In this document: one piece after another, positions 1-51,443 of the stretch | Layout: the number at the start of each line of letters is the position of its first letter | Position numbering within the stretch: position 1 is the stretch's first letter | Origin: Catalinimonas alkaloidigena | GTDB lineage: Bacteria > Bacteroidota > Bacteroidia > Cytophagales > Flexibacteraceae | Assembly (NCBI RefSeq): GCF_900100765.1 | Contig: NZ_FNFO01000003.1 | Coordinates: 62,001 to 126,000 of the forward strand | DNA: 64,000 nucleotides | Direction of reading: 5' to 3' | Made by a program: the position numbers and the translations under genes | The notes under the pieces: model-generated | The model's database searches: none | What the model was told of the DNA's origin: nothing | Seen by the model: the letters and a program-made list of their open reading frames with translations, nothing else

Positions 1-538
1 TGTAGCGTCACCCTGGCCGGCTTGGTACTGACTGACCCCACCGCCCCGCAACTCACCCTGGCCCGCCGCCAACACCTCACCGGCTGTGACGGCACGCCCA
101 ACGGTCAACTGGTGGTGGCTGTCACCGGCGGCACGGCCCCCTACGAATACGCTCTTGGCAACGGAGCCTTCGGACCCGACTCGATCTTTGCCAACCTGCC
201 GGTGGGCACCTACTCGATCGTGGTGCGCGATGCCAACGGCTGTCAGGCCGCACTGGACACGCTGCGCCTCATCAACCAGGATGCCCCCACCCTGTCGCTG
301 GTCGCTCTCAATGACGCTACCGGCTGTGACGGCACGGACGGCAGCCTGCACGTCGCGGCCGCCGGCGGAGCGGGCGACTACCGCTTTGCTCTCAACAACG
401 GCGTGTTTGCCTCCGACTCGGTCTTCACGAACCTGGCGGCCGGCACCTACCAGGTCTCGGTGCGGGATGCCAACGGCTGCACCACCACCCTGGCCGATCT
501 GGTCATCCGAAACCAGAATGCTCCTCTAATCAGCCTTG
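1..538 (+). repeat. Direct repeat copy 1 (adhesin), 3000 bp from copy 2
   Basis: Aligned base by base with 3001-3538, I count ten mismatches up to about base 530; the copies diverge completely after about 538. Nine mismatches are silent and one (base 517) changes Asn to Asp. The match already exists at base 1, so the repeat continues left of the window. It encodes about two and a third SprB units. Confidence 0.95.
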
Positions 539-3500
539 TGGCGACAAGCAACCCGACGGGTTGTGCAGGTGCCACCGACGGCAGCATTACCGTCAGCACG
601 ACCGGAGGGGCAGGAAGTTATACGTACAGCCTCAACGGGATGGCTACCCCTGATTCGGTCTTCACCAACCTGACGGCCGGTAGCTATGAAGTCATCGTTA
701 CCGATGCCAACGGCTGTAGCGATACCTTGCAAAACATTGTACTCGATACTCCGTCTGCGGTGGCGATCGCCCTGGTAGACGCCCTCGATCCGACCTGCAA
801 CGGTGCTGACAATGGCCTCATCCGCGTCTCGACTACGGGTGGCCAGGGGAACTACCAGTACTCGCTCAACGGTGGTTTGTTTACGGCCGATTCTGTCTTT
901 GCCAACCTGACACCGGGTACCTATACCATTCTGGTGCGCGATGCGGCAGGCTGTCAGGACACGCTGCGTGGCATCACGTTAGCCGAACCCCTCGCACTGC
1001 AAATAGCGCTGGTCGCTACGCAGGACGACTCCTGTGGGGTAACACCCAGCGGTCTGATCCGCGTGAGCGCGACCGGTGGCACGGAACCATACACCTATGC
1101 GCTGGATGGCGGCTCGTTTGGCGCGGACTCTACCTTCACAGGTCTGACGGCCGGCACCTACGACGTTACGGTGCGCGATGCCCAAGGCTGTACGACTACC
1201 CTGCCCGACATTACGCTAAGCACGCCCGCTACCTTCACGGTAGATGTCGCCAAGCAAGAGCCGAGCTGCAGCAACAACGACGGTTCGATTACCCTACTGG
1301 TCAGCGATACAACCAATAAGCAGGTAAGTGGCGATCTGGTGGCTTTCTCTACCTCAGGGCTGGCCGAAGGTACGTACAACGCGGTGGTCACCGACCTCAT
1401 CAACAACTGCCGCCAAACGGTCTCTATTACCCTGAGCACGCCTCCGGCTAACTTCCTGTCGGATATCCAGATTCAGGCCCCCACGACTTGCAATGGCACC
1501 GACGGGGTGGTATCGTTTGCGTTCAATAGCCTGGATGTCGTAGTAACGGGCGACCTGACCTCGGATAACACCACGGATCTGGCAAGCGGTTCTTACTTTG
1601 TCGTACTGCTCGACACGGTGACCGGCTGTAGCCTCGACACGACGGTGGTAGTGCCCGCCGCTCCGGTGCCCTTCACGGTCAACGCCACCATTACGGCTAC
1701 GTCGGACTGCGGGCAGGCCGATGGCAGCATTCAGCTGAGCATGATGGGCGGAAGCGGGTCTTTCTCGTTCGCGGGTGATCTCACCGCTGCCACTACTACC
1801 AACCTGGCGGAAGGCACCTACCGCGTTTCCATCACCGATCAGGTAAGCGGTTGTGTCCTGGACACTAGTTTCTATGTTACCGGATGTGTTACGACTTGTA
1901 CGCTGATTGCTTCGGTAGATAGCGTACCGCCGACAGGCTGTAGCAATGCAAACGGCAGCATTACGGTCAATACCTCAGGAGGCGTCGCGCCGTTCCGCTA
2001 TGCTCTTAACAACGGCGTATTCGGGACCAACAACGTCTTTACGGATCTTCCCACAGGCGTGTACAGCGTCACCGTGCGCGACGCCCAGGGTTGTCTTGTC
2101 GAAATAACAGACATCAGCCTCATGCCGCCGTCTATGTTTACCGTGGACGTTGTTACGCAGGCCGCGTCGTGTGGCGCAAGCGACGGAGCGATCTTCCTGG
2201 AAGTAGCTGACACCACCGACATGACGGTTAGTGGCGATCTTACCGCATTCAGCACTACCGGCCTGCCGGCAGGTGCCTACAACGTAGTAGTCACGGATGT
2301 ATCAACTACCTGCCAGCGTTCGCTGAGCATTACACTTGATGCAACTGATCCTGCCTTCCTGACCGACGTTCAGACTCAGGCACCGACCACCTGTAACGGG
2401 GGAGACGGTTCCGTAACCTTCACGGTCAGCAACACAAACGTTGTGGTCACCGGTGATTTAACAGCACTGAGCAACACGGCACTCACCGCGGGCTCGTATA
2501 CCGTGCAACTGACGGACACCCTTACGAATTGTGTACTGGATACCACGGTGGTTGTGCCTAACGCACCTGCCCCGTTCACGGTAGTGGCCAGTGTGAGTGA
2601 CGTGTCGGCCTGCGGCACCCAGGACGGGGCCATCACCCTGACCCTGTCCGGCGGCAGCGGCTCCTTCTCGTTCGCCGGCGATCTCTCCGCCGCCACCACC
2701 ACCGCCCTGGACTCGGGCACCTACCAGGTCACCATCACCGACCTGAGCTCCGGCTGTCAGCTCGACACCGCCTTCACCATCCAGGGCTGTACCACCACCC
2801 CCGGCTGCACCCTCACCGCCTCGGCCACCCTCACCGACGTGACCACCTGCAGCCTGCCCGACGGTACGATCACCATCACCACCTCCGGCGGCACCGCGCC
2901 CCTGGAGTACGCCCTCAACGGCAGCGCCTTCGGTCCGGCCGCTTCCTTCTCTAACCTGACGGCCGGCACCTACCAGGTCATCGTCCGCGATGCCACCGGC
3001 TGTAGCGTCACCCTGGCCGGCTTGGTACTGACTGACCCCACCGCCCCGCAACTCACCCTGGCCCGCCGCCAACACCTCACCGGCTGTGACGGCACGCCCA
3101 ACGGTCAACTGGTGGTCGCCGTCACCGGCGGCACGGCCCCCTACGAGTACGCTCTTGGCAACGGGGCCTTCGGACCCGACTCGATCTTTGCCAACCTGCC
3201 GGTGGGCACCTACTCGATCGTGGTGCGCGATGCCAACGGCTGTCAGGCCGCACTGGACACGCTGCGCCTCATCAACCAGGATGCCCCCACCCTGTCGCTG
3301 GTCGCTCTCAATGACGCTACCGGCTGTGACGGCACGGACGGCAGCCTGCACGTCGCGGCCGCCGGCGGGGCGGGCGACTACCGCTTTGCTCTCAACAACG
3401 GCGTGTTCGCCTCCGACTCGGTCTTCACGAACCTGGCGGCTGGCACCTACCAGGTCTCGGTGCGGGATGCCAACGGCTGCACCACCACCCTGGCCGATCT

Positions 3501-6500
3501 GGTCATCCGAAACCAGGATGCTCCCCTGATCAGCCTTGCTGACCTGCGGCAGCCGAACTGCAATGGCGACAGCGCATTCTTCGCAGTTAGCTCTACCGGG
3601 GGTGTTGCGCCGTATCAGTACGCACTAAACGGCGGCACTTTCGGCTCCGATTCCATCTTCACCAACCTGACAGCCGGTAGCTATGAAGTCATTGTGCAAG
3701 ATGCCAATGGCTGTGTCGATACCTTGCGCAATGTGGTGATCGACAATGCTAGCCCGATTGCCATGACGTTGGTCAGCACAACGCAATTGACTTGCGATGG
3801 CAATGCCGATGGCGAGATTGTCGTCTCGGTCACCGGTGGAACAGGTGCGTACAGCTTCCTGATCAACGGTGTAGCGTCCAGCAACTCTACGTTCCGGAAC
3901 CTGGCAGCGGGCACGTACCAGATCGTCGTTACCGACGAAGCCGGCTGTAGCACTGCCTTGAACAACATCGTTTTAGCAGAACCCACCGCGATTGACCTCA
4001 CGCTGGCAGAGTCGTTCTCTTCCGTATGCGGCGGGGCTACCGGTCAGTTCTCTGTCGCAGTGGCCGGAGGAGCCGCGCCATACGAATATGCTTTGAACGG
4101 CGGAACCTTCGGTCCCGACTCGGTCTTCACCGATCTGGCGGCCGGCTTTTACAACGTTACCGTACGCGATCAAAACGGATGCACCACGACGCTGAGCGAC
4201 GTTACCATCGCAGCGCCGGGGAACTTCTGGTATGAACTCGATGTACAATCGCCGACGACGTGTGACGCCAGCAACGGCTTCATCAACATCAACATCGGTG
4301 GAACCGCCGCCAGCAACATCGTTGTGTCGGGCGACTTGTCGTCCCTCACCAACGCCAACTTGCCACAGGGCGTCTACCGCGTGCTACTGACCGATACCAC
4401 AACGGGTTGCTCGCTGGTTGCGAAAGCAACGCTGGCGGCTCCGGCGGCACAGTTCCTGGCTGAGGTAGTAGCGAAAAACCCGTCTGCCTGCGGCAATACC
4501 AACGGTTCGATTCGCTTCGTAGTGGCCGACAGCAGCAACATGCAAGTGACCGGCGACCTGACGGCGCTGACGACTACCGGCCTCGCGTCTGGGACGTATG
4601 CCGTCACACTGTTTGACGCCAACACGGGCTGTCAGATCGATACGGTAGTGACGTTGCAAGATGGTCCGGCACCGTTCACGGTACGCGCTACCATCCAGCC
4701 GGTAGCCGATTGTAGCAATCCGGATGGCAGCATCACGCTCAACGTAACGGGCGGCAGCGGCGATTACCTCTTCAGTGGTGATCTGACTGCCGCCACCACG
4801 ACAGGCCTGCGCGAAGGAAATTATCGCGTCACCATTACCGATGCCATCAGCGGATGCGTCACCGACACGACCTTCCTAATAGGAGGTTGTTCGATTCCGT
4901 GTGCCTTGTCGGTGTCTGCGGACCTGACGCCCGTTTCCGGCTGCGAAACCGCCAACGGTGAAATCAATGCTCAGGCAACGGGAGGCACGGCTCCTTACAC
5001 CTTCACGCTGAACACAGGAGCCCGCAATACCACAGGACGCTTCACAGGCCTTTCGGAGGGAACGTATGTGCTGTTCGTACGCGACGCGGCAGGCTGTACG
5101 GATACCTTGACGGATATCAACTTAGGCAACCCGACGGCGCCTTCGCTGCGCCTGGTTAGCACACAGAACGCCAGCAGCTGCACAGGTACGGCCAACGACG
5201 GGCAGATTACCGTAACGACCGACGGCGGACAAGCCCCGTATCGCTACTTCCTGAACGGGCAAGCGGCCAACAGCAACGTATTCCGCAACCTGACGGCCGG
5301 AACGTACCAAGTGGTAGTGGTAGATACCCTCGGCTGTTCCGATACACTCGGCAACATTCGGGTGGGCAACAGCGGCCCGAACTTCACGGTGACCCGTTCG
5401 ATCAACAACGTTACTTCTTGCGGCGGTACTGACGGACGCATTACGCCTTCCATCAACGGTGTGGGACCATTCTCGTACCTCTGGAGTGGAGTAGGCATCC
5501 AGCCCGGTAAGGAGAACCAATTAGTGCAGTCTAACTTGCCAGCGGGTACCTATCGTCTGGTAGTAACGCATACTGCTTCGGGATGTACGCGCGAAGCCAC
5601 GTTCACCGTATTGGAGCCAACCAACTGCGGAGGCAATGGCGGTGGATGTACGCCGACGGCGACCATTGTGATCGTCAGTCCAACTGCCTGTTCAGACATC
5701 AACGACGGTACGATTACCGTCACGCAGGTAGGCGGCACCGGCCCATTTGGCTACAGTATTGGTAATGCCTATACTTCCGACACCGTGTATACGGGTATCC
5801 AACCGGGCACCTATACTGTTGCAGTGTACGATTCGGCGACTGGATGTGAGTACACCACGCAGATCAATGTTGTCCGCGAAGCTTCGTTCGAGTTCCAGGC
5901 GGCAGTTGTGAAACAAGTAAGCTGTGCCGGAGGAAATGACGGTGCCATTGCGGTAACTGCTCTCACAGAAGGCAAAACCATGGTGTACGCCATCGATAAC
6001 CTGGATCCGAGTAGTTTCAAGGCGGTAAAAGCTGGTGATACCATCACCGGTCTGAACGCAGGACGACATACGCTCTACCTGCGCGACGCCAGCAACAATG
6101 CGTGTATCAAAGACACCTCGTTCCAGATCACCCAGCCGGAAGCCTTGGTAGCAACGGTCGCCGCTACGCAACTGTCGCAGTGTGCCACGCCAACCGGCAA
6201 AGCGAAGCTGAATGGGGTTGCCGGAGGCACCGCACCGTACCGCTACTACATAGGCTCACGGCAAGTAGGGGTTTCTCCGCAGAACGGCGTCTTTACGAAG
6301 CTTTCAAACGGACAGGATACGCTTCTGGCCGCGGGCGACTACACCTTAACAGTGGTAGACGCGAAAAACTGCGCGACGCAAGTCGCCTTCCGGATCGACG
6401 CGGATGGCCCGACCATCAATAAGTTCCTGCTGATCAACCCCGCATGTAGCGGTGGCCTCAACGGTGAAATCCGGATCACAGAAGTATCGGGCGGTACCGG

Positions 6501-7683
6501 ACCGTATCGTTACAGCCTGAACGGCGGGGCTTATCAGGAGAGCGGCGTATTTACCGGTCTGGCCGCGGGCGATTACACCATCCGCGTTCAGGATGTCTCC
6601 GGTTGCCCACGGGCGTTCGACTACACGTTGACCAGTCCGGAAGCGATCACGTTCAAAACGAGTTTTACGCCAACCTCGTGCGCCCTTAACGACGGAACCA
6701 TCACCGTGACAGGCTTCACCCATGGCGTAGCGCCCTACTTCGTGATCATCAACCGTGAGGATACGCTGATGGCACTCAACCAGGACGATGAAGTGAAGTT
6801 CAGCCGACTGACGTCAGGTGTGTATACCATCGAGGTAGTAGACCAATCCAACCGGGGTACCGGGTGCCGCGCGACGAGAGACGTAGCCGTGTCGGGGTAC
6901 GAAGGCTTCACCTTCACCCATTCGAATACGCACGTGAACTGCTTCGGCGATGCGTCCGGAACCATTACCATCGAGAACCTTCGGGGGCTGGGTCCGTTCA
7001 GCATCACGGCCAAAAATCGTCAGGGTCAGGTGGTCTTCCAGGACACCACCAGCGCCGGTACGCATCCGATCTTCGGCCTCACGGCGGGACAATACGCTGT
7101 AACGATCAAGCAGCTGACCGAATGCGAAGACCAGACGGCCATTACCTTCCTGGATACCATTCAGGGGCCGGCGCAACCGATCAAACTGCACTGGCGCGCA
7201 GTGGCTCCGTCGTACAACGACCTGCCGCAGGGACGCATCAAAATCGACAGCATCACCGGCGGGTCGGGTGGTCCGTACTGGATCCGGGTAGATGGCACTG
7301 CCGAACAGCGCATCTTCGCCAACGAGCGCGGTGTCTACGATACGCTGCTGATCGGGTTGTTGCCACGCAACTACCAGATTCTGGTGCGCGACGAGTTGGG
7401 ATGCTACCAGGAGTTTACCGCTACGGTAGTGGCCGACGACTCGTTCGTGATTCCGAACGTGTTCACGCCGAATGGTGATGGCAAAAACGACAAGTTCTAC
7501 CTGTCGAACCTGCCGGTCGGTACGGCGGTCTTCATCTACAACCGATGGGGTAAGCTGGTTTACAAAAACGGGGACTACGATAACCAGTGGGAAGGCGAAG
7601 GATTGTTAGAAGGAACCTACTTCTACAGCATTCGCCATCCTACCCTCGGTCTCCTCAAAGGGTGGGTACAAATCCGCCGTTAA
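1..7683 (+). CDS. SprB-repeat giant surface adhesin, T9SS type B substrate (5' end missing)
   Basis: The frame is open from base 1, so the start and N-terminus lie left of the window; at least 2560 residues are present. The protein is built of about 31 units of roughly 75-80 residues, each with a GGTAPYEYALNGG-like core and a GTYQVxVRDANGC-like end; these are SprB-type repeats. The last ~80 residues (from about nt 7447, VIPNVFTPNGDGKND...) match the gliding-motility-associated C-terminal domain, the sorting signal of type B type IX secretion substrates. SprB is the moving surface adhesin of gliding Bacteroidota, so export to the cell surface and a role in adhesion or gliding are inferred. Two unit types alternate: Gly-rich SprB units and SGDLTA units arranged in triplets. 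Segments are nearly identical at the DNA level (see repeats). A hairpin terminator follows the stop. No other motility or sorting gene is adjacent. Confidence 0.93.
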   Translation, partial: CSVTLAGLVLTDPTAPQLTLARRQHLTGCDGTPNGQLVVAVTGGTAPYEYALGNGAFGPDSIFANLPVGTYSIVVRDANGCQAALDTLRLINQDAPTLSLVALNDATGCDGTDGSLHVAAAGGAGDYRFALNNGVFASDSVFTNLAAGTYQVSVRDANGCTTTLADLVIRNQNAPLISLVATSNPTGCAGATDGSITVSTTGGAGSYTYSLNGMATPDSVFTNLTAGSYEVIVTDANGCSDTLQNIVLDTPSAVAIALVDALDPTCNGADNGLIRVSTTGGQGNYQYSLNGGLFTADSVFANLTPGTYTILVRDAAGCQDTLRGITLAEPLALQIALVATQDDSCGVTPSGLIRVSATGGTEPYTYALDGGSFGADSTFTGLTAGTYDVTVRDAQGCTTTLPDITLSTPATFTVDVAKQEPSCSNNDGSITLLVSDTTNKQVSGDLVAFSTSGLAEGTYNAVVTDLINNCRQTVSITLSTPPANFLSDIQIQAPTTCNGTDGVVSFAFNSLDVVVTGDLTSDNTTDLASGSYFVVLLDTVTGCSLDTTVVVPAAPVPFTVNATITATSDCGQADGSIQLSMMGGSGSFSFAGDLTAATTTNLAEGTYRVSITDQVSGCVLDTSFYVTGCVTTCTLIASVDSVPPTGCSNANGSITVNTSGGVAPFRYALNNGVFGTNNVFTDLPTGVYSVTVRDAQGCLVEITDISLMPPSMFTVDVVTQAASCGASDGAIFLEVADTTDMTVSGDLTAFSTTGLPAGAYNVVVTDVSTTCQRSLSITLDATDPAFLTDVQTQAPTTCNGGDGSVTFTVSNTNVVVTGDLTALSNTALTAGSYTVQLTDTLTNCVLDTTVVVPNAPAPFTVVASVSDVSACGTQDGAITLTLSGGSGSFSFAGDLSAATTTALDSGTYQVTITDLSSGCQLDTAFTIQGCTTTPGCTLTASATLTDVTTCSLPDGTITITTSGGTAPLEYALNGSAFGPAASFSNLTAGTYQVIVRDATGCSVTLAGLVLTDPTAPQLTLARRQHLTGCDGTPNGQLVVAVTGGTAPYEYALGNGAFGPDSIFANLPVGTYSIVVRDANGCQAALDTLRLINQDAPTLSLVALNDATGCDGTDGSLHVAAAGGAGDYRFALNNGVFASDSVFTNLAAGTYQVSVRDANGCTTTLADLVIRNQDAPLISLADLRQPNCNGDSAFFAVSSTGGVAPYQYALNGGTFGSDSIFTNLTAGSYEVIVQDANGCVDTLRNVVIDNASPIAMTLVSTTQLTCDGNADGEIVVSVTGGTGAYSFLINGVASSNSTFRNLAAGTYQIVVTDEAGCSTALNNIVLAEPTAIDLTLAESFSSVCGGATGQFSVAVAGGAAPYEYALNGGTFGPDSVFTDLAAGFYNVTVRDQNGCTTTLSDVTIAAPGNFWYELDVQSPTTCDASNGFININIGGTAASNIVVSGDLSSLTNANLPQGVYRVLLTDTTTGCSLVAKATLAAPAAQFLAEVVAKNPSACGNTNGSIRFVVADSSNMQVTGDLTALTTTGLASGTYAVTLFDANTGCQIDTVVTLQDGPAPFTVRATIQPVADCSNPDGSITLNVTGGSGDYLFSGDLTAATTTGLREGNYRVTITDAISGCVTDTTFLIGGCSIPCALSVSADLTPVSGCETANGEINAQATGGTAPYTFTLNTGARNTTGRFTGLSEGTYVLFVRDAAGCTDTLTDINLGNPTAPSLRLVSTQNASSCTGTANDGQITVTTDGGQAPYRYFLNGQAANSNVFRNLTAGTYQVVVVDTLGCSDTLGNIRVGNSGPNFTVTRSINNVTSCGGTDGRITPSINGVGPFSYLWSGVGIQPGKENQLVQSNLPAGTYRLVVTHTASGCTREATFTVLEPTNCGGNGGGCTPTATIVIVSPTACSDINDGTITVTQVGGTGPFGYSIGNAYTSDTVYTGIQPGTYTVAVYDSATGCEYTTQINVVREASFEFQAAVVKQVSCAGGNDGAIAVTALTEGKTMVYAIDNLDPSSFKAVKAGDTITGLNAGRHTLYLRDASNNACIKDTSFQITQPEALVATVAATQLSQCATPTGKAKLNGVAGGTAPYRYYIGSRQVGVSPQNGVFTKLSNGQDTLLAAGDYTLTVVDAKNCATQVAFRIDADGPTINKFLLINPACSGGLNGEIRITEVSGGTGPYRYSLNGGAYQESGVFTGLAAGDYTIRVQDVSGCPRAFDYTLTSPEAITFKTSFTPTSCALNDGTITVTGFTHGVAPYFVIINREDTLMALNQDDEVKFSRLTSGVYTIEVVDQSNRGTGCRATRDVAVSGYEGFTFTHSNTHVNCFGDASGTITIENLRGLGPFSITAKNRQGQVVFQDTTSAGTHPIFGLTAGQYAVTIKQLTECEDQTAITFLDTIQGPAQPIKLHWRAVAPSYNDLPQGRIKIDSITGGSGGPYWIRVDGTAEQRIFANERGVYDTLLIGLLPRNYQILVRDELGCYQEFTATVVADDSFVIPNVFTPNGDGKNDKFYLSNLPVGTAVFIYNRWGKLVYKNGDYDNQWEGEGLLEGTYFYSIRHPTLGLLKGWVQIRR
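1231..1887 (+). repeat. SGDL triplet module 1 (adhesin)
   Basis: A 657-bp module of three related units (TFTVDV..., FLSDIQIQAPTTCNG..., PFTVNATI...SFSFAGDLTAATTT) ending at a TGC residue triplet. The same order of units recurs at 2134-2790 and, more diverged, at 4222-4890. Confidence 0.85.
2134..2790 (+). repeat. SGDL triplet module 2 (adhesin)
   Basis: Exactly the same length (657 bp) and unit order as module 1. Its last third (after about 2600) has a much more C/G-biased third-position usage than its first two thirds. Confidence 0.85.
3001..3538 (+). repeat. Direct repeat copy 2 (adhesin)
   Basis: Near-identical to 1-538 at exactly 3000 bp offset, hence in frame. It sits at the end of a stretch (about 2600-3538) whose codons are markedly richer in C/G third positions than the flanking repeats, which suggests a recently copied block. 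Confidence 0.95.
4222..4890 (+). repeat. SGDL triplet module 3 (adhesin)
   Basis: A 669-bp version of the same three-unit module (NFWYELDVQSPTTCD..., FLAEVVAKNPSACG..., PFTVRATI...). It is the most diverged of the three, consistent with an older duplication. Confidence 0.75.
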
Positions 7684-9137: not shown

Positions 9138-10472
9138 ATGGTCAGAATCTTCAAGTTCGGGGGGGCATCCCTAAAAAACGCAGCGGCTATTCGCAATACG
9201 GCCGACATCATTCGCCAACATGCGGCCGGCAACCAACTGCTGATTGTGGTGTCGGCCATGGGGCAAACCACCAACCGCCTGGAGGCCCTGTACAGCGCCT
9301 ATGCCCAACCGCAAGCCGGTGTTGACCATCCGCAGGAGATTTTGCAGGAAATTCGGCAGTACCACGAAGACATCGCCCGTGAGTTGTTCGGCGAACTACC
9401 CGAAACCCTCGTGGCCCTGTTCGACAACCTGTTCGGCAAACTGGAAACCAAGGCGTCGTCCCTCCCCCATTCCGTGCCCTTCGACGAGGGTTACGATCAA
9501 GTGCTGTGCTATGGCGAGATCATCTCGTCGCATCTGGTGGCGCGTTACCTGCAACACCTGGAATTACCCGTGGAGTGGATCGATTCCCGACGTTACATCC
9601 AGACCGACATGACCTGGCGCGAAGCCCGCATCGACTGGCTCTGGACCGAAAGTCAGGTGCAACGCCAACTGGCACCCAAGCTCAAACAGCAAATTGCGCT
9701 GACCCAGGGCTTCATCGGAGGCACGGTCGACGGGCGTACTACCACGCTGGGCCGCGAAGGGTCCGATTTTACGGCCGCCATCTACGCGCACTGCCTGCGG
9801 GCCGCCTCGGTCACCATCTGGAAAGACGTGCCGGGCATTTTGAACGCCGACCCCAAACGGATTGCCGACACGTACCTCTACCCGAACTTGTCGTACGAAG
9901 AGGCCGCCGAAATGACGTATTACGGCGCCACGGTGATCCATCCCAAAACCATTCGTCCTCTCAAGAGTCGCAACATCCCGCTGTACGTACGCTCATTTCT
10001 CAACCCGGACGCGCCGGGCACCTGCATCGGCGAAGGACAACCGGAGGGCATGAGGCCTGCCATCATTTTCAAGCGCAACCAACGCATGATTTCGTTCAGT
10101 GGCCGCGACCTGACGTTTGTCAGTGAACACAACCACTTCGTGATTCTGAACGCCTGCGCGCGCCAGAACCTCCACATCAACCTGATGCAGAACTCAGCCA
10201 TTTCGTTTCTCATCTGTTGCGACTACAACCCCTGGAAGGTGCAAGAGCTGGTGGACTCGCTTCGCGAGCAGTTCGAAATCAAAGTATCGGACGATTTGGA
10301 GCTGATCACCATCAAGCATTACGACCTGCCCACCATCGAAAAAGTAATGAAAGGAAAAAAAGCCCTAGTGGAACAGAACACGCTCCATACATATCAGGCG
10401 GTAGTGCCCACTTCGGCTGAACCTTTGCAGGATTCCGTCGTTCCACTATTTGAATGGAAACCTATCGGATAA
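9138..10472 (+). CDS. lysC: Aspartate kinase (monofunctional)
   Basis: Catalyses ATP-dependent phosphorylation of aspartate, the first step to lysine, threonine, methionine and diaminopimelate. The 444-residue product opens with the nucleotide-binding motif KFGGASL, carries the GREGSDFTAA and DPKRI segments of the amino-acid kinase fold, and ends with two ACT-like regulatory segments (from about residue 310) where end-product feedback is expected. No homoserine dehydrogenase domain follows, so it is monofunctional. Its 3' end overlaps the next gene by 19 bp, which suggests cotranscription with the DUF4174 gene. Confidence 0.93.
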   Translation: MVRIFKFGGASLKNAAAIRNTADIIRQHAAGNQLLIVVSAMGQTTNRLEALYSAYAQPQAGVDHPQEILQEIRQYHEDIARELFGELPETLVALFDNLFGKLETKASSLPHSVPFDEGYDQVLCYGEIISSHLVARYLQHLELPVEWIDSRRYIQTDMTWREARIDWLWTESQVQRQLAPKLKQQIALTQGFIGGTVDGRTTTLGREGSDFTAAIYAHCLRAASVTIWKDVPGILNADPKRIADTYLYPNLSYEEAAEMTYYGATVIHPKTIRPLKSRNIPLYVRSFLNPDAPGTCIGEGQPEGMRPAIIFKRNQRMISFSGRDLTFVSEHNHFVILNACARQNLHINLMQNSAISFLICCDYNPWKVQELVDSLREQFEIKVSDDLELITIKHYDLPTIEKVMKGKKALVEQNTLHTYQAVVPTSAEPLQDSVVPLFEWKPIG

Positions 10473-10924
10473 TCTTTAACCTGCTTTTTATCATGGCACT
10501 CCAGGGACCTGGAGCGGCTGGCCAGCCTGCTCCCCATCAACCGTCAAATGCAGGCGACGTGCTGGCACCGTATCGTTGGTCGAACCGACTGCTTCTTATT
10601 TTCTCCGAAGACACCAACATTACCGACTACCAGCGTCAGGTTTCCATCCTGCAGTCGGATCAGATGGGCATGGCCGACCGTGATCTGGTATTTTTCCGCA
10701 TTTTTCCGGACGAGGGGTACACCCCCGACAACGATGCCCTGACGCCCGCCCAGGTTACGGCGCTGCGCGAGCGTTTCGATGTCGGCACGGGCTTTACGGT
10801 GATTCTGATCGGCAAAGATGGAGGAGAGAAGCGCACCGAACGCAAACCCCTCACGCTCGATCAGTTGTATGGCACCATCGACGCCATGCCCATGCGCCAA
10901 AATGAAATGAAGCAAAACCCCTGA
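10454..10924 (+). CDS. DUF4174 domain protein with signal peptide
   Basis: A 156-residue protein. Residues 1-22 are a hydrophobic leader (RIIFNLLFIMALQGPGAAG), so it is probably exported. The rest (about residues 30-145) matches the DUF4174 pattern: YRWSNRLLLIF near the start, DRDLVFFRI in the middle and FTVILIGKDGGEK...LTLDQLYGTIDAMPMRQ at the end. The family has a thioredoxin-like outline but no CxxC here and no established reaction. The start lies inside lysC (19-bp overlap). A later Met at residue 14 is a possible alternative start but would shorten the leader. Confidence 0.75.
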   Translation: METYRIIFNLLFIMALQGPGAAGQPAPHQPSNAGDVLAPYRWSNRLLLIFSEDTNITDYQRQVSILQSDQMGMADRDLVFFRIFPDEGYTPDNDALTPAQVTALRERFDVGTGFTVILIGKDGGEKRTERKPLTLDQLYGTIDAMPMRQNEMKQNP

Positions 10925-17247: not shown

Positions 17248-17883
17248 TTAGATCTTGTTGTGGTACGAAATCTTCTGACGAAGTTCCTCCAAATGATTCC
17301 GCTCCGTTTGCAGTTCGCGCTTGATCTTGATTTCGCGCTCACGCGAACGCTTGCGAAACTCCTCAAACTCTTCGTTTAAGGCCTCGTATTCGCGGCGTGT
17401 CCGGGTCGTCACTTTGTTGCTGCTCTGGAATTTGTAGATCGCGCCCAGCATCAGCACCAGCAAAATGCCCACGATACTCCACATCACGGTCGAGTACGTT
17501 TCTTTCAATACATCCATACCCAGGAAAGAGATGGTCGCATTCTGGCGTTCGCTGCGCTCCAGTTCTTCACCACGCTTGGCCAGCTGTCCCTTCAAGTCCT
17601 GTAATTCCTGCTCCTGCGAAGCAAGTTGCTGCTGAAGCGTCCCGATTTGCGTCTGTAAGACCTGCACAGAGTCCTGCACGTTTTTCCACAATGCATTCAA
17701 CTTAAATTCCTTCACCACCTTGTAGTCCTCGTAGCGGTTAGAGCTCTTCTTCAGCGATTCGAACTGCGCATTCAGCGTATTGCTTGCTTCTTCCGTACTA
17801 GCCTCAGCGTCCTGTGCGTACGAAGGCAGCGCCGTACCCAAGGTCAGTACTAGTACAATCAGAGCGGAAATCTTTAGTTTCAT
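17248..17883 (-). CDS. Signal-peptide/coiled-coil/TM protein (often mislabelled tRNA (guanine-N1)-methyltransferase)
   Basis: A 211-residue protein. A signal peptide (residues 1-23, ending PSYA) is followed by a short domain with SLKKSSNRYEDYKVVKEFKLNALWKNVQDS, a coiled coil (about 70-118), a single TM helix (about 132-152, VMWSIVGILLVLMLGAIY) and a second, highly charged coiled coil (about 165-207). I recall this arrangement from Cytophagales proteins carrying the database name tRNA (guanine-N1)-methyltransferase. Nothing here resembles the knotted TrmD fold, and the signal peptide and TM exclude a soluble tRNA enzyme. An envelope structural role is a guess. Confidence 0.75.
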   Translation of the reverse strand: MKLKISALIVLVLTLGTALPSYAQDAEASTEEASNTLNAQFESLKKSSNRYEDYKVVKEFKLNALWKNVQDSVQVLQTQIGTLQQQLASQEQELQDLKGQLAKRGEELERSERQNATISFLGMDVLKETYSTVMWSIVGILLVLMLGAIYKFQSSNKVTTRTRREYEALNEEFEEFRKRSREREIKIKRELQTERNHLEELRQKISYHNKI

Positions 17884-19082: not shown

Positions 19083-19090
19083 TACCTTTG
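19083..19090 (+). promoter_or_regulatory. Candidate -7 box (TACCTTTG) at the start of the efflux operon
   Basis: Matches TAnnTTTG but ends only 3 bp before the chosen ATG (19094). If used, transcription would begin at or just inside the gene, implying a leaderless message or a start at an inner Met. No clear -33 element was found. Confidence 0.3.
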
Positions 19091-19093
19091 CTT

Positions 19094-19507
19094 ATGCGAC
19101 GAAAGTGGACGGCATACGGACTTATGTTGCTGGCCTGGATGATTCTGATGGCCCACAGCCTCTTTCCGCACGTCCATACCACGCACAAAACGCGGATCGT
19201 CACACAGACTGTTTCGGCCGAAGCAGGGCTGGGTTCTTTATTAGGAGGTGTTTTCTGGCTGGACGAGGGTCCGCAGCACCTGGAAAATTACCAGCCTAGC
19301 GATTTTCAGTCGGAAGTTGCCGCCACGGCGGCCGACCAGCCCACTCCCCCCCGTGCCGATTTTGCGCTGCCCAACCTGCCGGGCCAAAGGTTGCTTCCCC
19401 CTGCCCACGCGCCGCCCGCACAGCCGTCGTACGCCGCTTACGTTCCTACCGCTTACTTTTTCCTTTTCTGTAGCGCCACGCCCCTGCGTGCGCCGCCCGT
19501 TGCCTGA
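19094..19507 (+). CDS. Small exported protein with HxH motif at the head of the metal-efflux operon
   Basis: A 137-residue protein, not assigned to a characterised family. The N-terminus is a signal or anchor segment (GLMLLAWMILMAHSLFPHVH). Right after it comes SLFPHVHTTHKT, three His in a short run that could bind metal. The C-terminal half is Pro/Ala-rich and ends with a hydrophobic AYFFLFCSA segment. Similar short proteins with a PHHHH-like motif often precede CusA/CzcA pumps in Bacteroidota, so an accessory metal-binding role is inferred from context. The gene ends 77 bp before the pump. An inner Met (19124) is a possible alternative start. Confidence 0.6.
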   Translation: MRRKWTAYGLMLLAWMILMAHSLFPHVHTTHKTRIVTQTVSAEAGLGSLLGGVFWLDEGPQHLENYQPSDFQSEVAATAADQPTPPRADFALPNLPGQRLLPPAHAPPAQPSYAAYVPTAYFFLFCSATPLRAPPVA

Positions 19508-19584: not shown

Positions 19585-22500
19585 ATGATCGATTCCATCA
19601 TTCATTTTTCCGTCCGCAACAAGCTCATTATCGGCCTGATGGCCCTGGGGTTGGTGGCTTGGGGCGTTTATTCTTACCGACAACTCCCGATCGACGCCGT
19701 TCCTGACATCACCAGCAATCAGGTACAGGTCGTGACCATTTCGCCCTCGCTGGCCCCTCAGGAGGTTGAAAAATTCATTACGTATCCGGTCGAACTGGCC
19801 GTTGCCAATACGCAGGACGTGGTCGAAATCCGGTCGATTTCCAGCTACGGCCTTTCGGTCGTCACCATCGTATTTGAGGAAGGCGTGTCTACGCTGGCGG
19901 CGCGGCAGCTGATCAGCGAACACCTCACCACGGCCGCCGAGCAGATTCCGCCCGCGCTCGGACGCCCCGAGCTGATGCCCATCACTACGGGTCTGGGCGA
20001 GATCTACCAATACACGCTGGACGTACAGCCCGGCTACGAAGACCGGTTTACGGCGATGGACCTGCGCACCATCCAGGACTGGATTGTAAAACGGCAGCTG
20101 GCCGGGACGCCGGGCATCGTGGAAGTCAGCAGCTTCGGCGGCTTCTTGCGGCAGTACGAGATCGCCATCGACCCGCGGCGGTTGCGCAGCTACGACCTGA
20201 CGCTCGACGACGTACACGAGGCGCTGGCGATGAACAACCAAAATACCGGCGGCAGCTACTTTGAAGAAGGTCCGAACGCCTATTACGTCCGTGCCGAGGG
20301 TTTGGTCCGCTCACCCAGCGAGATTGGCGCCATTGTGGTGAAAACCCTTAACAATGTGCCCGTGCTGATTCGCGACATAGGCGAGGTGACCAACGGCTTC
20401 GCGCCCCGTTTCGGTGCCATGACCAAAGACGGTGAAGGCGAAGTGGTTGGCGGCATCACGCTGATGCTGAAGGGCTACAACGCCGTTAACGCCGTCGAAA
20501 ACGTGGAGGCGCGGATCGCCCAGATCCAGACGTCGCTGCCCGAAGGGCTGGAACTCAACGCTTACCTGGACCGGGGGCGGCTGGTGGAGCGCGTCATTCA
20601 TACGGTGCAGAAAAACCTGATTGAAGGCGGGCTGATCGTGATCTTCGTGTTGGTGCTGTTGCTCGGCAACTTGCGCGCCGGCCTGATTGTCGCCTCGGTT
20701 ATTCCATTGGCCATGATGTTCGCCCTCGGCATGATGAACCTGTTCGGCGTGTCGGCCAACCTGATGAGCCTCGGCGCCATCGACTTCGGGCTGATTGTGG
20801 ACGGCGCCGTGATCATCGTGGAAAGCATCGTCCACCGTCTGCACGACAAGTTCGGGCAAACGCCCACCCGACTGACACAGACGCAGTTAGACGACGAAGT
20901 GGCCGAGTCGGCGGTACGGATCCGGCAGTCGGCCGCGTTCGGCGAGATCATCATCCTGATTGTTTACCTGCCTATCATGACGCTGGTCGGCATCGAAGGC
21001 AAGATGTTCCGTCCCATGGCCCTGACCGTCTCGTTCGCCATTCTGGGGGCGCTGATTCTGTCGCTGACCTACGTCCCGATGATGTCAGCACTGTTTCTGA
21101 GCAAAAAGGTAGAAACCAAAGTCACCTGGGCCGACCGGCTGATCATGGCGGTGCAGCGGCGTTACCTGCCCGTCCTGAACTTCGCCCTGCGCCACCGGCT
21201 GATCGTCATCATCACGGCCGTTACGGCGTTTGTGCTGAGCCTGCTCCTCTTTTTCCGGTTGGGGGCCGTGTTTATTCCTACGCTGGAAGAGGGCGACTTC
21301 GCCATGCAGATGACCATCCCGCCCGGCAGTTCGCTGGAAGAGTCGATCCGCACCACCACCAAGGCCGAGAAAATTCTACGCGACAATTTCCCCGAAGTGG
21401 AGCACGTCGTTTCGAAAATCGGCACGGCCGAGGTGCCGACCGACCCGATGGCCATGACCGATACCGACGTGATGATCATCCTGAAGGAAAAGGACGAGTG
21501 GACCACGACCGACGACCGGGAAGCACTGGTCGGGATGATGAAAGAGAAACTTTCGTCCATCAGTTGGGCTAACTTCGAGTTCACGCAGCCCATCCAACTT
21601 CGGTTCAACGAACTGATTACGGGTTCGAAATCCGACATCGCACTCAAGATTTACGGCGACGACCTGAACCTGCTTTTCGAAAAGGGGCAACAGGCCGCGG
21701 CCATCATCTCGAAAATTCCGGGAGCGGCCGACATCCGCGTGCAGCAACTGGAAGGTTCGCCGCAGATCGTGATCGATTACAACCGGGAGGCGATGTCGCG
21801 CTACGGCCTGAACATCGAGCAGTTGAATACGGCAATTCGCACCGCGCTGGCCGGGCAAAGCGCCGGGCTGGTTTACGAAGAGGAGCGCCGGTTCGACCTC
21901 GTGGTGCGGCTCAACGAAACGTTTCGGCGTAATCCGGAGTCGCTGCAACTGCTGTTTGTGCGGGCACCGTCGGGCACGCTGGTGCCGCTGTCGGACGTGG
22001 CAACCATCCGCCTGGACGAAGGCCCGATGCAGGTCTCGCGCGAGAATACCCACCGCCTGATCAACGTGGGCATCAACGTCCGCAACCGCGACGTGAAAAG
22101 TCTGGTGGAGGAAATTCAGCAGAAATTAACCGCGCAATTGCCGCTGCCGCCCGGCTACTACATCCGCTACGGTGGTCAGTTCGAAAACTTACAGGCGGCG
22201 CAAGACCGTCTGATGATAGCCGTGCCCATCTCGCTGCTGCTGATTTTCCTTTTGCTGTTCTTCACGTTCCATTCGTTTACGCAGGCGCTGCTGATCTTCA
22301 CCGCCATTCCGCTCTCGGCCATCGGCGGCATTCTGGCGCTCTGGCTGCGCGACATGCCCTTCAGCATTTCGGCCGGGGTGGGCTTCATTGCCTTGTTTGG
22401 CGTGGCCGTACTGAACGGTATTGTGTTGGTCGGGTACCTGAACCAACTCAAACAGGAAGGCGTCGGCGACATCCGTGAGCGCGTTCGGCAGGGGGCGCTG

Positions 22501-23952
22501 GTGCGCCTGCGTCCGGTGCTGATGACGGCGGCGGTGGCCTCGCTGGGCTTTTTGCCGATGGCGCTGTCTACGACGGCGGGCGGCGAAGTACAACGGCCTC
22601 TGGCGACGGTGGTCATTGGCGGGTTGGTCACGGCCACGCTGCTGACGCTGCTGGTGCTGCCGGTGCTCTACAGTTGGGTGGAAGAAGGCGGCTTATCGCA
22701 AGCTTTCCGTCGAAAAAAGGGGTTGGCGGTCTTTGTGGTGCTGTTCTTCTGCCCTGCGTTGCTGCAGGCTCAAACGAATGAGGCGACGCCCGATACGCTC
22801 GAAGTCTCGCTCGACGAAGCCCTCCGGCTGGCGCGCGCCCGCAACCCGGACTTACAGAATGCCCAACTGCGTATCGAAGCGGCCCAAGCGCTGCAACGTA
22901 CGGCCTTCGACCTGGGCACAACCAGCGCTACCTGGCAACGGGGGCAGATCAACTCCAGCCTCACGGATAACTACTGGCAGGTGCACCAGAACTTCGGTGC
23001 CCCGCTGGAACACCTGGCGCGCGGCCAATTGCAACGTCAGGAAGTACAGGTGCAGGAAGCTACGCAGGTGGTGCAGGAACGTAACCTGATCGGCGAAGTG
23101 TACAGCACGTACTACCGGTGGGTGATGCTGGAACAGAAACGCCGGATTCTGCAGCGGTACGCCGCCCGCTACGACACCGTGGTAGCGGTGGCCGACCTGC
23201 GTTACCAGACCGGCGAAAGTCCTTACCTCGAAAAACTGGCTACACAAACACGACAGGCCGAACTGGTTACCCAACTCCGGCAACTGCAAACCGAACAGGC
23301 CGTAGCGCGGCGGCAGTTGCAACAGCTTCTGTTTACCCAGCAACCCCTCCGGCTCTCTGCCCAGGTGCCGATGCGGGTTCCGCTGGCGCAAGGTCAGCGG
23401 CCGCAACTAGTACGCGCTAACGACAGCACGCGTGCCTTGGCCGCCCCGCTGGTGCGGCAATATGCGGCGGAAGCGGCGCGGGCGCAGGCCGAACTCAAGG
23501 TAACACGGGCCGGCCTTTCACCCAGCTTTACGGCCGGTTATTTCAACCAGGAGCTGGAAGGCGTGCCCGGCTTTAGAGGATGGCAGCTCGGCATCTCGTT
23601 CCCGCTGTGGTTTGTGCCACAGCAAGCCCGCATGCAGGCCGCGCGCATCAGCCGCGACGTCGCCGACAACCAGTACATCTACGCGCAGTTTCGGTTGAAT
23701 CAGGAAACCCAAATGCTTGCGGAACAGATCGCTCAGGTGGAAGAAAAGCTACGTTACTTCGAAGAGAATGCGCTGCCCCAGGCCCAGACCCTGACCGAAA
23801 CCTCCACGCTACTCTATCAGAACGGCGAAATTGCCTATTACGAGCACCTGCTGAACCTCCAGGAAGCCCTGAACATCCAGACTACCTACCAGGATCAGCT
23901 CTATCAGTACAATCAACTCATCATTCGTCTGAATACCCTTTTTGCGTCATGA
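19585..23952 (+). CDS. CusA/CzcA heavy-metal RND pump fused to a TolC-like outer-membrane factor
   Basis: A 1455-residue fusion. Residues 1-~1040 are a heavy-metal RND pump; the proton-relay signature in the fourth TM helix is present (D400 and D406 in IDFGLIVDGAVIIVE, with E413). Residues ~1043-1060 (KKGLAVFVVLFFCPALLQAQT) look exactly like a signal peptide with an LQA-QT cleavage site. Residues ~1065-1455 are an outer-membrane-factor (TolC/CusC) domain with long helices (LDEALRLARARNPDLQNAQLR...). Pump plus exit duct would move Cu/Ag or Co/Zn/Cd out of the cell. Its stop overlaps the ATG of the membrane-fusion gene (ATGA, 23949-23952). Ion specificity cannot be told from sequence alone. Confidence 0.93.
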   Translation: MIDSIIHFSVRNKLIIGLMALGLVAWGVYSYRQLPIDAVPDITSNQVQVVTISPSLAPQEVEKFITYPVELAVANTQDVVEIRSISSYGLSVVTIVFEEGVSTLAARQLISEHLTTAAEQIPPALGRPELMPITTGLGEIYQYTLDVQPGYEDRFTAMDLRTIQDWIVKRQLAGTPGIVEVSSFGGFLRQYEIAIDPRRLRSYDLTLDDVHEALAMNNQNTGGSYFEEGPNAYYVRAEGLVRSPSEIGAIVVKTLNNVPVLIRDIGEVTNGFAPRFGAMTKDGEGEVVGGITLMLKGYNAVNAVENVEARIAQIQTSLPEGLELNAYLDRGRLVERVIHTVQKNLIEGGLIVIFVLVLLLGNLRAGLIVASVIPLAMMFALGMMNLFGVSANLMSLGAIDFGLIVDGAVIIVESIVHRLHDKFGQTPTRLTQTQLDDEVAESAVRIRQSAAFGEIIILIVYLPIMTLVGIEGKMFRPMALTVSFAILGALILSLTYVPMMSALFLSKKVETKVTWADRLIMAVQRRYLPVLNFALRHRLIVIITAVTAFVLSLLLFFRLGAVFIPTLEEGDFAMQMTIPPGSSLEESIRTTTKAEKILRDNFPEVEHVVSKIGTAEVPTDPMAMTDTDVMIILKEKDEWTTTDDREALVGMMKEKLSSISWANFEFTQPIQLRFNELITGSKSDIALKIYGDDLNLLFEKGQQAAAIISKIPGAADIRVQQLEGSPQIVIDYNREAMSRYGLNIEQLNTAIRTALAGQSAGLVYEEERRFDLVVRLNETFRRNPESLQLLFVRAPSGTLVPLSDVATIRLDEGPMQVSRENTHRLINVGINVRNRDVKSLVEEIQQKLTAQLPLPPGYYIRYGGQFENLQAAQDRLMIAVPISLLLIFLLLFFTFHSFTQALLIFTAIPLSAIGGILALWLRDMPFSISAGVGFIALFGVAVLNGIVLVGYLNQLKQEGVGDIRERVRQGALVRLRPVLMTAAVASLGFLPMALSTTAGGEVQRPLATVVIGGLVTATLLTLLVLPVLYSWVEEGGLSQAFRRKKGLAVFVVLFFCPALLQAQTNEATPDTLEVSLDEALRLARARNPDLQNAQLRIEAAQALQRTAFDLGTTSATWQRGQINSSLTDNYWQVHQNFGAPLEHLARGQLQRQEVQVQEATQVVQERNLIGEVYSTYYRWVMLEQKRRILQRYAARYDTVVAVADLRYQTGESPYLEKLATQTRQAELVTQLRQLQTEQAVARRQLQQLLFTQQPLRLSAQVPMRVPLAQGQRPQLVRANDSTRALAAPLVRQYAAEAARAQAELKVTRAGLSPSFTAGYFNQELEGVPGFRGWQLGISFPLWFVPQQARMQAARISRDVADNQYIYAQFRLNQETQMLAEQIAQVEEKLRYFEENALPQAQTLTETSTLLYQNGEIAYYEHLLNLQEALNIQTTYQDQLYQYNQLIIRLNTLFAS

Positions 23953-25106
23953 AATCGCTTTTGACATATACCGGAACCGTGCTTTGGGCCGTGTTCCTTT
24001 TGGCTTGCCAGTCCACACCAACCGCTCCGGAAACCGCCGCGTCCGACACAGCCGCCGCGCCGGCCGAAGATCAGGTCCGCATGACGGCCGAGCAACTCAG
24101 CCAGGCGGGTATCCAGCTCGGTCAAATCACCCCCCGTCCCATGGCGCGGGAGGTAAACTGCAACGGGGTGATCGACGTACCGCCCCAGGGCCGGGCCGTT
24201 ATCAGTCCGCCGCTGGCAGGCTTTGTGCAGTCGCTGCGCGTGCTGCCGGGCGACGACGTCCGCGCCGGGCAAACGCTTCTCACGCTGCGCCACCCCGACT
24301 ACATCCGGCTGCAGGAACGCTACCTGGAAGCCAACAGCCAGCTTACCTTTCAGGAGAAAGAATACGAGCGCCGCAGAACGCTGAGCGAGAACAACGCCCT
24401 GGCCCGCAAGTCGTTCGAACAAACGGAGTCGGAATACGCCACGCTACAGGCACGGCAGGCGTCACTGGCGGCACAGCTCCAACTGCTGGGCATCGACCCG
24501 GCGTCGGTCACGCCCTCCACCATTCGGCAGACCATCTCCATTCCGGCCCCCATCCAGGGACGGGTCGGCGCGGTGCACGTCAGTACCGGTTCGTACGTAG
24601 ATCCTCAAGATCCCATGCTGGAAATCATCAACAAGGAGCACATTCACCTGGAGTTGCAAGTGTTTGAAAAAGACGTACTTCAGCTGAAAAAGCAGCAGAA
24701 ACTCACGTTCCTGGTGAATGGCGCACCGGACCATACGTTTCGGGGGGAGATTTACCTGATTGGCGAGGTAGTAGACCCCATGAGCAAAACCGTGCAGGTT
24801 CATGCCCATCCGCTGACGGAAGAACACGCTCTGAAGCCCGGTATGTTTGTACAGGCCACCATTCTGACCGATGCCGACACGGTCCCCACGCTTCCGACCG
24901 ACGCGTTGGTGCGCGAGCAGGAAAACTACTTCGTGTTTACTCAGGAAGCCACCGGCACGTTTCGCAAACATCCGGTGCAGATCGGGAAACGCCAGGGCGA
25001 TTACGTCACCATTCTCAATGCCGACCAGCTTCCGACCGATGCGCCACTGGTTGTACAGGGTGCACATTACCTGGAAGCCACACGCACGGCGGGGGAAGGC
25101 GAATAA
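23949..25106 (+). CDS. Efflux RND periplasmic adaptor lipoprotein (CusB/CzcB type)
   Basis: A 385-residue membrane-fusion protein that links the inner-membrane pump to the outer-membrane duct. A lipobox is visible (VFLLAC, Cys about residue 20), so it is anchored as a lipoprotein. A lipoyl/barrel-sandwich half (GFVQSLRVLPGDDVRAGQTLLTL) is followed by a helical hairpin (about 120-175), the second half (IPAPIQGRVGAVHVSTGSYVDP) and beta-barrel domains. The start is fixed by the 4-bp ATGA overlap with the pump gene, indicating translational coupling. No His- or Met-rich N-terminal metal site is evident. Confidence 0.92.
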   Translation: MKSLLTYTGTVLWAVFLLACQSTPTAPETAASDTAAAPAEDQVRMTAEQLSQAGIQLGQITPRPMAREVNCNGVIDVPPQGRAVISPPLAGFVQSLRVLPGDDVRAGQTLLTLRHPDYIRLQERYLEANSQLTFQEKEYERRRTLSENNALARKSFEQTESEYATLQARQASLAAQLQLLGIDPASVTPSTIRQTISIPAPIQGRVGAVHVSTGSYVDPQDPMLEIINKEHIHLELQVFEKDVLQLKKQQKLTFLVNGAPDHTFRGEIYLIGEVVDPMSKTVQVHAHPLTEEHALKPGMFVQATILTDADTVPTLPTDALVREQENYFVFTQEATGTFRKHPVQIGKRQGDYVTILNADQLPTDAPLVVQGAHYLEATRTAGEGE

Positions 25107-26759: not shown

Positions 26760-28025
26760 TCAAAACCGGTAACTCAACAGCAGGGAGTAGCTGGCAGTCT
26801 GCGATTGCAGCACCAAGTACTGCGACATGCCGTTGCCAAACGCGGCGCGCATTTCACCAGTCAGCTTGCCGTGCCGCAGGCCAACGCCCCCGACCACGCT
26901 GCTTTCCAGCTTGCGAAACACTTCCAGCACGGGCGTGTCTTCAATACGCTCCACGCTGTAATAGCGCGTTTCTTTGTGCTTGAAGTTATCGCTCCGGACG
27001 GCCCACCCGCCGGCGATCCCCGCCTGCACAAACGGCCGCCATTTGGCCTCGGGGTAATAGTACCGAAACAACGTCGTGAGTTTCAGGTACGACAGATCGA
27101 ACGAGGTTTGGTAGTACGTATAGTCGTTTTCGCTTTTGTAATCTTCCCACTCCCCTTCATAGGCAGCGCTTTGATACAGAAGGTCCGCATGCAGGCCAAT
27201 TTTCCTACGACCGCGGGGAAAGATCATCGTCACGCCGACCCCGAACGTAGGCTTGACCGAAGTAGCGTAGGAAACGTTGGTCAGAAAAGGATAAGCCGTA
27301 GGGCCATCGCCCGTAAAAGTTAGCCGCGAGGCCGAAGCGCCTACCAGGAGCTGAGGCTCTATCCACATGCGTTCGCGTGCTTTTACGTAGACATTGCCGG
27401 ATGCGCAGGTCCGGTTGTATTGCTGCACGACCTTGGCGAAGTTGTTGCGCCGAAAAGCCAGGTTAGCAAGCTTGGCGCGCACCGTGGGGCAATCGCTCAT
27501 AACATACGCCAGCTGCCCTTTGTAGCGCGTATCGGCTTTGATGCGAGTGCCTTCCATCGAGCGGAAGTAGATCAGTTCTTCGAGCGGTGCCCCCTCTTTC
27601 TGAATAAAGTAATGCAGCTTGGTGCTTTCGTCTTCCAGGAAGTAAAGCGACAGTGGCCCTCGTACTTCGGCCAGCAAAAAGACCGTATCGAGCACCACCG
27701 TCCGGTTGGGCGTTAAGGGCAAGTCTTCCAGGCGGTACGGCGACTTGTCGACGTGCACGACCCGGCCGATGTAGATTTCGTCCTCCACGGCGAAGGCGCT
27801 TACGTCCAGCGGCGTATAGCGTACCACCGCCGCGGCCATGTCTTCTTTGAACGAGATGGAAGTGGGATTGCTACTCCAGTTGCGGTAGTCGATCCAGCCG
27901 GATACCGTGTCGCCTTCCAATCCCACGACGTACCCGGGTTGAAAATTTGCCTGCGCTATGGCTGCGTTCGTCAGCAAGCTGCCTAATAAAAATGTAAAAA
28001 GTCGCTTACTCAGTAGTCCAACCAT
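26760..28025 (-). CDS. Outer-membrane beta-barrel protein, unknown function
   Basis: A 421-residue protein. The signal peptide (FTFLLGSLLTNAAIAQA) is followed by an N-terminal region (about 28-200) beginning FQPGYVVGLEGDTVSGWIDYRNW, a pattern seen in many Bacteroidota envelope proteins. From about residue 225 come alternating amphipathic strands (IEPQLLVGASAS, PTFGVGVTMIF, LTTLFRYYYP, PFVQAGIAGGW) ending in an aromatic C-terminus, SLLLSYRF. A small outer-membrane barrel is inferred. It is convergent with the DUF389 gene (20-bp gap) and divergent from the GH13 gene. Substrate and partners are unknown. Confidence 0.75.
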   Translation of the reverse strand: MVGLLSKRLFTFLLGSLLTNAAIAQANFQPGYVVGLEGDTVSGWIDYRNWSSNPTSISFKEDMAAAVVRYTPLDVSAFAVEDEIYIGRVVHVDKSPYRLEDLPLTPNRTVVLDTVFLLAEVRGPLSLYFLEDESTKLHYFIQKEGAPLEELIYFRSMEGTRIKADTRYKGQLAYVMSDCPTVRAKLANLAFRRNNFAKVVQQYNRTCASGNVYVKARERMWIEPQLLVGASASRLTFTGDGPTAYPFLTNVSYATSVKPTFGVGVTMIFPRGRRKIGLHADLLYQSAAYEGEWEDYKSENDYTYYQTSFDLSYLKLTTLFRYYYPEAKWRPFVQAGIAGGWAVRSDNFKHKETRYYSVERIEDTPVLEVFRKLESSVVGGVGLRHGKLTGEMRAAFGNGMSQYLVLQSQTASYSLLLSYRF

Positions 28026-51404: not shown

Positions 51405-51443
51405 TAAGTCCTAATGCTTTATCACTCACAATCCGCTGAATTC

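Follow-up and report, generated by a model that had tools for sequence, protein, structure and literature searches.

A conserved internal signal peptide predicted between an RND efflux pump and its outer-membrane channel in a Catalinimonas alkaloidigena fusion gene and its relatives

How can a single reading frame supply both the inner-membrane pump and the outer-membrane channel of a metal efflux system? The question is raised by a gene in the window, i.e. the 64,000-nucleotide stretch of Catalinimonas alkaloidigena DNA that was analyzed (positions 62,001 to 126,000 of contig NZ_FNFO01000003.1). The gene at 19585-23952 (+) is a single uninterrupted open reading frame (ORF) of 1455 codons plus a stop, and its 1455-residue product begins as an RND pump and ends as a channel of the TolC/CusC type (Table 1). 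The Pfam model ACR_tran matches the pump part with an E-value of 1.3e-287, and the NCBIfam model for CusA/CzcA, TIGR00914, covers the whole of it with 1161.9 bits against a cut-off of 701.45. OEP (Pfam) is found on the C-terminal part in two stretches, the better of which spans residues 1284-1452 (E 5.7e-19), and the best solved structure matched by the channel in Foldseek is CusC (3pik; E 2.3e-15, TM-scores 0.71/0.73, probability 1.00). The preliminary description of this locus had called it a CusA-TolC fusion, of which the RND pump and the TolC-like channel are borne out by these matches. The CusA part of the name holds less well: the TM4 motif of the pump reads DFGLIVDGAV, which presumably is more CzcA-like than CusA-like, so a copper pump should not be assumed and the substrate is a predicted one.

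Table 1. Features of the fusion gene and of the adjoining ORFs (positions in the window)
Feature	Position	Strand	Evidence
Small ORF, 139 aa, hydrophobic N-terminus, contains HVHTTH, upstream of the fusion	19088..19507	+	no Pfam family
CusA/CzcA-family heavy-metal efflux RND pump, residues 1-1033	19585..22683	+	TIGR00914 1-1033; ACR_tran 5-1032
Linker after TM12, residues 1034-1041, presumably cytoplasmic	22684..22707	+	translation
Predicted internal signal peptide, residues 1042-1062 (made up of RRKK, a hydrophobic core and LQA); would double as a 13th membrane helix	22708..22770	+	
Codon of Gln1063, +1 of the predicted signal peptidase I (SPI) cut between residues 1062 and 1063	22771..22773	+	
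Mature TolC/CusC-type outer-membrane channel, residues 1063-1455, 393 aa	22771..23949	+	OEP; AlphaFold2; Foldseek
CusB/CzcB-type periplasmic adaptor, 385 aa, lipobox LLAC	23949..25106	+	HlyD_D23 E 6.4e-34; TIGR01730

Pump and channel are joined by VEEGGLSQAFRRKKGLAVFVVLFFCPALLQA/QT, where the slash marks the predicted cut, here and below. The junction proper, RRKK-GLAVFVVLFFCPALLQA/QT, contains every part of an SPI signal peptide: the basic stretch R1042-R-K-K1045, a core at about 1047-1060 and L1060-Q1061-A1062 ahead of Q1063 (nt 22708-22773), with the predicted cut between nt 22770 and 22771. The signal-peptide-like junction of basic residues, hydrophobic core and LQA-QT described earlier is thus found where it had been placed. 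Leu at -3 is tolerated by SPI and is not ideal. Standard leaders begin at the N-terminus of the precursor and this signal begins at residue 1042, which makes it an internal variant. The C-terminus of RND pumps lies in the cytoplasm, and a thirteenth helix running from inside to outside is therefore needed to export the channel. The preliminary description had argued for an extra helix on the same ground; its argument fits RND topology and the charge of the segment before the core, which is net positive in 180 of 192 related junctions (mean K/R 4.28 versus D/E 0.62).

The most telling residue of the junction is the Gln at +1, which goes beyond LQA-QT as a plain cleavage site. Most SPI substrates of Bacteroidetes expose an N-terminal Gln that is then cyclized to pyroglutamate, and the Q-value of these substrates averages 71% across species, as stated in portions of PMC5837995. 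This Q-rule and the cyclase raise the stability of exported proteins, according to passages of PMC10653852. By this rule, the Gln at +1 marks the junction as an SPI substrate and not as a membrane anchor. Together with split relatives and with the geometry of the chain (see below), it makes SPI cleavage at the junction very likely, from which we infer that the one gene most likely yields two separate proteins. The reading preferred here, with a probability of roughly 0.88, is that the fusion is a polyprotein, which is threaded through the membrane by a 13th helix and which SPI divides into a pump and a channel. No published measurement of cleavage at such a junction was found.

In this process, the twelve helices of the pump would leave the chain in the cytoplasm, and the internal signal peptide would then re-engage Sec and insert as helix 13, so that the channel part is exported. 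SPI would cut between residues 1062 and 1063 on the periplasmic side, and Gln1063 would probably become pyroglutamate. The freed 393-residue channel would trimerize and go to the outer membrane, the pump would, initially at least, retain the additional C-terminal helix, and both would join the adaptor lipoprotein encoded by the next gene of the operon to form a tripartite metal pump of the usual kind. This arrangement may have the advantage that pump and channel synthesis is fixed at 1:1, which would match the 3:3 ratio of pump to channel in assembled pumps.

Conservation of the junction is evaluated on a collection of 235 loci (L001-L235). A scan of named genomes supplied 80 loci, kept from 134 relatives, and further loci came from searches of 59 and of 395 genomes. 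The query contains the channel and the collection thus favors fused genes, so the number of loci is not a frequency. The 193 distinct fused junctions, which include the C. alkaloidigena fusion (L081) and some near-identical pairs, are aligned with MAFFT. Left out are L176 (a duplicate of L019), L076 (truncated by a contig end), L231 (missed by the anchor), 33 loci in which the pump frame stops shortly after TM12 (three are duplicates, and L066 looks frameshifted by eye), the adaptor fusions L068, L075, L077 and L142 and the other RND proteins L136 and L163. The site picker and the charge and core counts use 192 junctions, i.e. the 193 without L023. A second alignment (A1) covers TM12 and the channel and consists of the C. 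alkaloidigena fusion and 49 hand-chosen rows.

In all 193 junctions the residue at -1 is small (A in 165, S in 18, G in 7 and T in 3). Gln occupies +1 in 181, or in 182 when L043 is counted, which has the Gln in a misaligned row. This is the second most conserved column among those more than 80% filled in a 160-residue stretch of the 193 junctions, and in A1 three columns outside TM12 are invariant, of which it is one; 'invariant' here holds for those 50 rows, none of which is a junction lacking Gln. Junction length and core sequence vary among homologues, with 10 to 56 residues (median 18) between the end of TM12 and the core in the 192 junctions. The basic segment, the hydrophobic core and the small residue at the cut recur, and a junction conserved among homologues, on which the preliminary description depended, is what the alignment contains. 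The eleven junctions without Gln at +1 (L005, L006, L010, L011, L022, L036, L048, L080, L183, L196 and L207) all keep the small -1 residue, and in eight of them an A at -1 is combined with A or V at -3 (by eye). One of these, the fused pump-channel gene L196 (G221:C2:20861-21561), has Cys at +1 (SAEA/C) and is perhaps a lipoprotein-type junction.

The MAFFT column behind the Gln count can draw Gln residues together, a bias of which a blind site picker is free. The picker places the cut by hydrophobicity and the -3/-1 rule and ignores the residue at +1 save for barring Pro. Applied to the 192 junctions, it returns 187 sites, 141 with Gln at +1; after clustering at 50% identity (95 clusters), the count is 72 of 92 sites. 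Two negative controls were run. When the region past the core is shuffled, three shuffles give Gln at +1 in 23/176, 12/173 and 26/183 sites, and other hydrophobic segments of the same proteins (800 segments) give 5 of 742 sites. Gln at +1 of the junctions is therefore more frequent than chance would give. N-terminal signal-like segments of neighboring ORFs, an impure set, have Gln at +1 in 22 of 148 sites (155 ORFs) and, when the set is tightened and still impure, in 21 of 60 (62 ORFs), which is still below the junctions; no weight is put on this set, which visibly holds lipoproteins and membrane proteins. Eight signal-like ORFs of the window were inspected by eye. Three have A/Q at the likely cut (17248-17883, 44230-44886 and 51414-51998), one has perhaps G/Q (10454-10924), a fifth carries a lipobox and the remaining three do not fit; one more A/Q leader belongs to the ORF at 26760-28025.

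A different outcome would follow if the extra helix stayed uncut as a 13th transmembrane anchor, with the channel still covalently bound to the pump. With a mean Kyte-Doolittle value of 2.64 (12 residues, 192 junctions), the core is sufficiently hydrophobic for a membrane-spanning helix, but an anchor needs neither a small residue at -1 nor Gln at +1, and exactly these are conserved while core and linker vary. Geometry also argues against an anchor. An AlphaFold2 model from TM12 to the end, built from the 50 alignment rows, has a mean pLDDT of 90.4, with values below 50 at model residues 50-56 around the cut (between 52 and 53) and channel structure from model residue 62 onward, so that about ten residues (9-11) link the membrane to the channel structure. 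As described in sections of PMC8277102, helix H1 of outer-membrane factors lies in the equatorial domain, in the middle of a periplasmic barrel of ~100 A, and the periplasmic part of AcrB is ~70 A tall. The distance from the membrane to the first channel helix thus looks too great for about ten residues to bridge, and on this geometry an uncut chain should probably not assemble normally.

The split relatives weigh against an uncut anchor as well, since they keep the same motif as an N-terminal leader. In six relatives with the genus code g51 (L144, L145, L158, L159, L161 and L162), what is fused elsewhere is divided into a CusA gene and a TolC gene; the proteins are the same as in the fusion, with the signal peptide N-terminal on the separate TolC. 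These TolC proteins are 76-78% identical to the fused L127 over the alignment from column 70 onward, and their leaders, with the first Met taken as the start, end in A/Q at the same aligned columns as the junctions of three fused relatives (for example, MKTSISTIFLLLISSFSLA/QNAQ in the split L144 versus MTKPIVTVLLLLVSSFSFA/QNSK in the fused L127). Taken together, these points make an uncut anchor improbable.

Less probable again is separate production of the channel from an internal start of translation immediately ahead of the hydrophobic core. A Met lies between 25 residues before the core and just inside it in 85 of the 192 junctions, where these residues are perhaps relics of old start codons, and the C. 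alkaloidigena fusion has a TTG codon at L1047. However, the remaining 107 junctions have no Met in this interval, the C. alkaloidigena fusion has none between TM12 and the core, and translation beginning at TTG1047 would place no basic residue ahead of the core. Any full-length product would still require the same cut. That the fusion is an artefact of a missed stop, a frameshift or an assembly error can practically be dismissed: L061, L063 and L066 look broken near the junction by eye, but among the matches listed for a query without the channel (L142), 130 of 150 lie in frames of at least 1400 aa (hand count), named plasmids of Hymenobacter, Spirosoma, Runella and Flavobacterium span the query in one piece, and the C. 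alkaloidigena genome carries a second fused copy, 54% identical.

Among these same matches, of which the other 20 are in shorter frames, the gene is mostly fused within the pump subfamily. Distant CusA-like paralogues (about 33-39% identity) are mostly in frames near 1030-1100 aa and unfused, so the fusion is a trait of one subfamily and not of all CusA-like pumps. The fused form is found on plasmids of Hymenobacter, Pontibacter, Adhaeribacter, Spirosoma, Fibrella, Runella and Flavobacterium, and among the matches listed, 25 of 25 plasmid records name it only as a CusA/CzcA transporter. A pump tree was built with FastTree only, from the 79 rows (76 different) caught by the filter, including one of the four adaptor fusions. 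The three fusion states need 13 changes on this tree, and for fused versus the rest the starred branches force at least 10, counted without direction.

The adaptor fusions offer a second case of an exported partner behind the pump. In four pumps (L068, L075, L077 and L142), ACR_tran is followed by HlyD_D23, i.e. a CusB-type adaptor in place of the channel, and the junctions carry lipobox-like motifs (LTAC, LSSC, ISAC and SSAC), which correspond to an internal SPII-type signal. L142 comes from the same order as C. alkaloidigena, and the other three come from records titled Mediterranea or Phocaeicola plebeius. No further pump-adaptor fusion is present among the matches listed for the L142 query in 395 genomes, with at most two candidates scored per genome. 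To judge from their sequences, whichever exported partner is fused to the pump appears to keep its export-and-cut signal. In assembled pumps, the ratio of pump to channel to adaptor is 3:3:6. A tentative generalization, slightly likelier to fail than to hold, is that the RND C-terminus serves in Bacteroidota as a launch pad for co-translational polyproteins, in which the fused partner (the channel or, rarely, the adaptor) keeps an internal signal and is freed by SPI or SPII; the bias toward channels would then reflect the 3:3:6 ratio, with the fusion setting stoichiometry. Channel fusions account for 193 distinct junctions versus four adaptor fusions, a bias partly built in by a query that carried the channel.

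The adaptor gene overlaps the fusion stop with its ATG (ATGA), and its product scores 165.4 bits against a cut-off of 94.9 with RND_mfp (TIGR01730). The small upstream ORF is possibly part of the same operon. The C. alkaloidigena genome contains two SPI genes above the TIGR02227 cut-off, in keeping with the proposed cut, and 13 matches to the M28 family, which is too broad to single out a glutaminyl cyclase. The one M28 match examined (L244) has a lipobox-like start and reaches the cut-off of no NCBIfam model; a glutaminyl cyclase is possible in this genome.

A separate observation concerns another CusA-type RND gene of C. alkaloidigena, L163 (G000:C2:260000-265500, 185-3845), which is split in the loop after TM4, with an ORF of the 23S_rRNA_IVP four-helix-bundle family (PF05635) between its halves. 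In L267 (G052:C5:187500-194500, 2630-6603 (-)), an ORF that looks methyltransferase-like by eye lies at about the same place, so that two unlike genes occupy one site in one kind of pump.

If the polyprotein reading is true, the inner- and outer-membrane parts of these pumps come in a fixed 1:1 ratio from one chain, and an outer-membrane protein is hidden in entries labeled only as CusA/CzcA transporter. A proteomic study with a filter for N-terminal signal peptides would discard the fusion as inner-membrane contamination. In the outer-membrane proteome of B. fragilis, as reported in a part of PMC4319957, 28 proteins predicted to be inner-membrane and lacking a signal peptide were set aside, and a fusion of this kind would drop out in the same way. 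For B. thetaiotaomicron, a table in PMC10434189 gives BT3968-72 an adaptor and a CusA/CzcA pump and no TolC, and gives BT2038-40, BT0678-80 and BT4693-95 all three components; BT3969 as a candidate fusion would explain the TolC missing from the first system in that table. Fused, split and differently fused relatives form a natural set for asking when Sec takes up a signal peptide after twelve helices and what the fusion buys. No description of an RND-TolC fusion or of its internal signal peptide was found among the papers listed in searches of the open-licence PMC literature, which is weak evidence of absence. The fusion is common in its subfamily; the noteworthy feature is its conserved internal signal peptide.

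The junction resembles the Q-rule SPI substrates of Bacteroidetes (PMC5837995, PMC10653852) in its small -1 residue and Gln at +1; the rule, in the parts of these papers that state it, is described for leader peptides, whereas the signal of the fusion lies ~1040 residues into a polytopic protein. The terms TolC, efflux and CusA have no occurrence in the main text of either paper. With the CusCBA and CzcCBA tripartite efflux pumps, the locus shares all three components, namely an RND pump, an adjoining CusB-type adaptor and a CusC-type channel; in contrast to these systems, pump and channel form one frame, and the channel signal is of the SPI type with Gln at +1. CusC of E. coli is a lipoprotein. 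A close architectural counterpart is the fbcH gene of Bradyrhizobium japonicum, whose cytochrome b/c1 polyprotein is divided by signal peptidase at an internal signal into a membrane protein and an exported protein. As predicted from its sequence, the pump-channel fusion would fit this architecture. The products of fbcH belong to a respiratory complex and stay in the inner membrane, whereas the pump-channel fusion would send one of its two products to the outer membrane.
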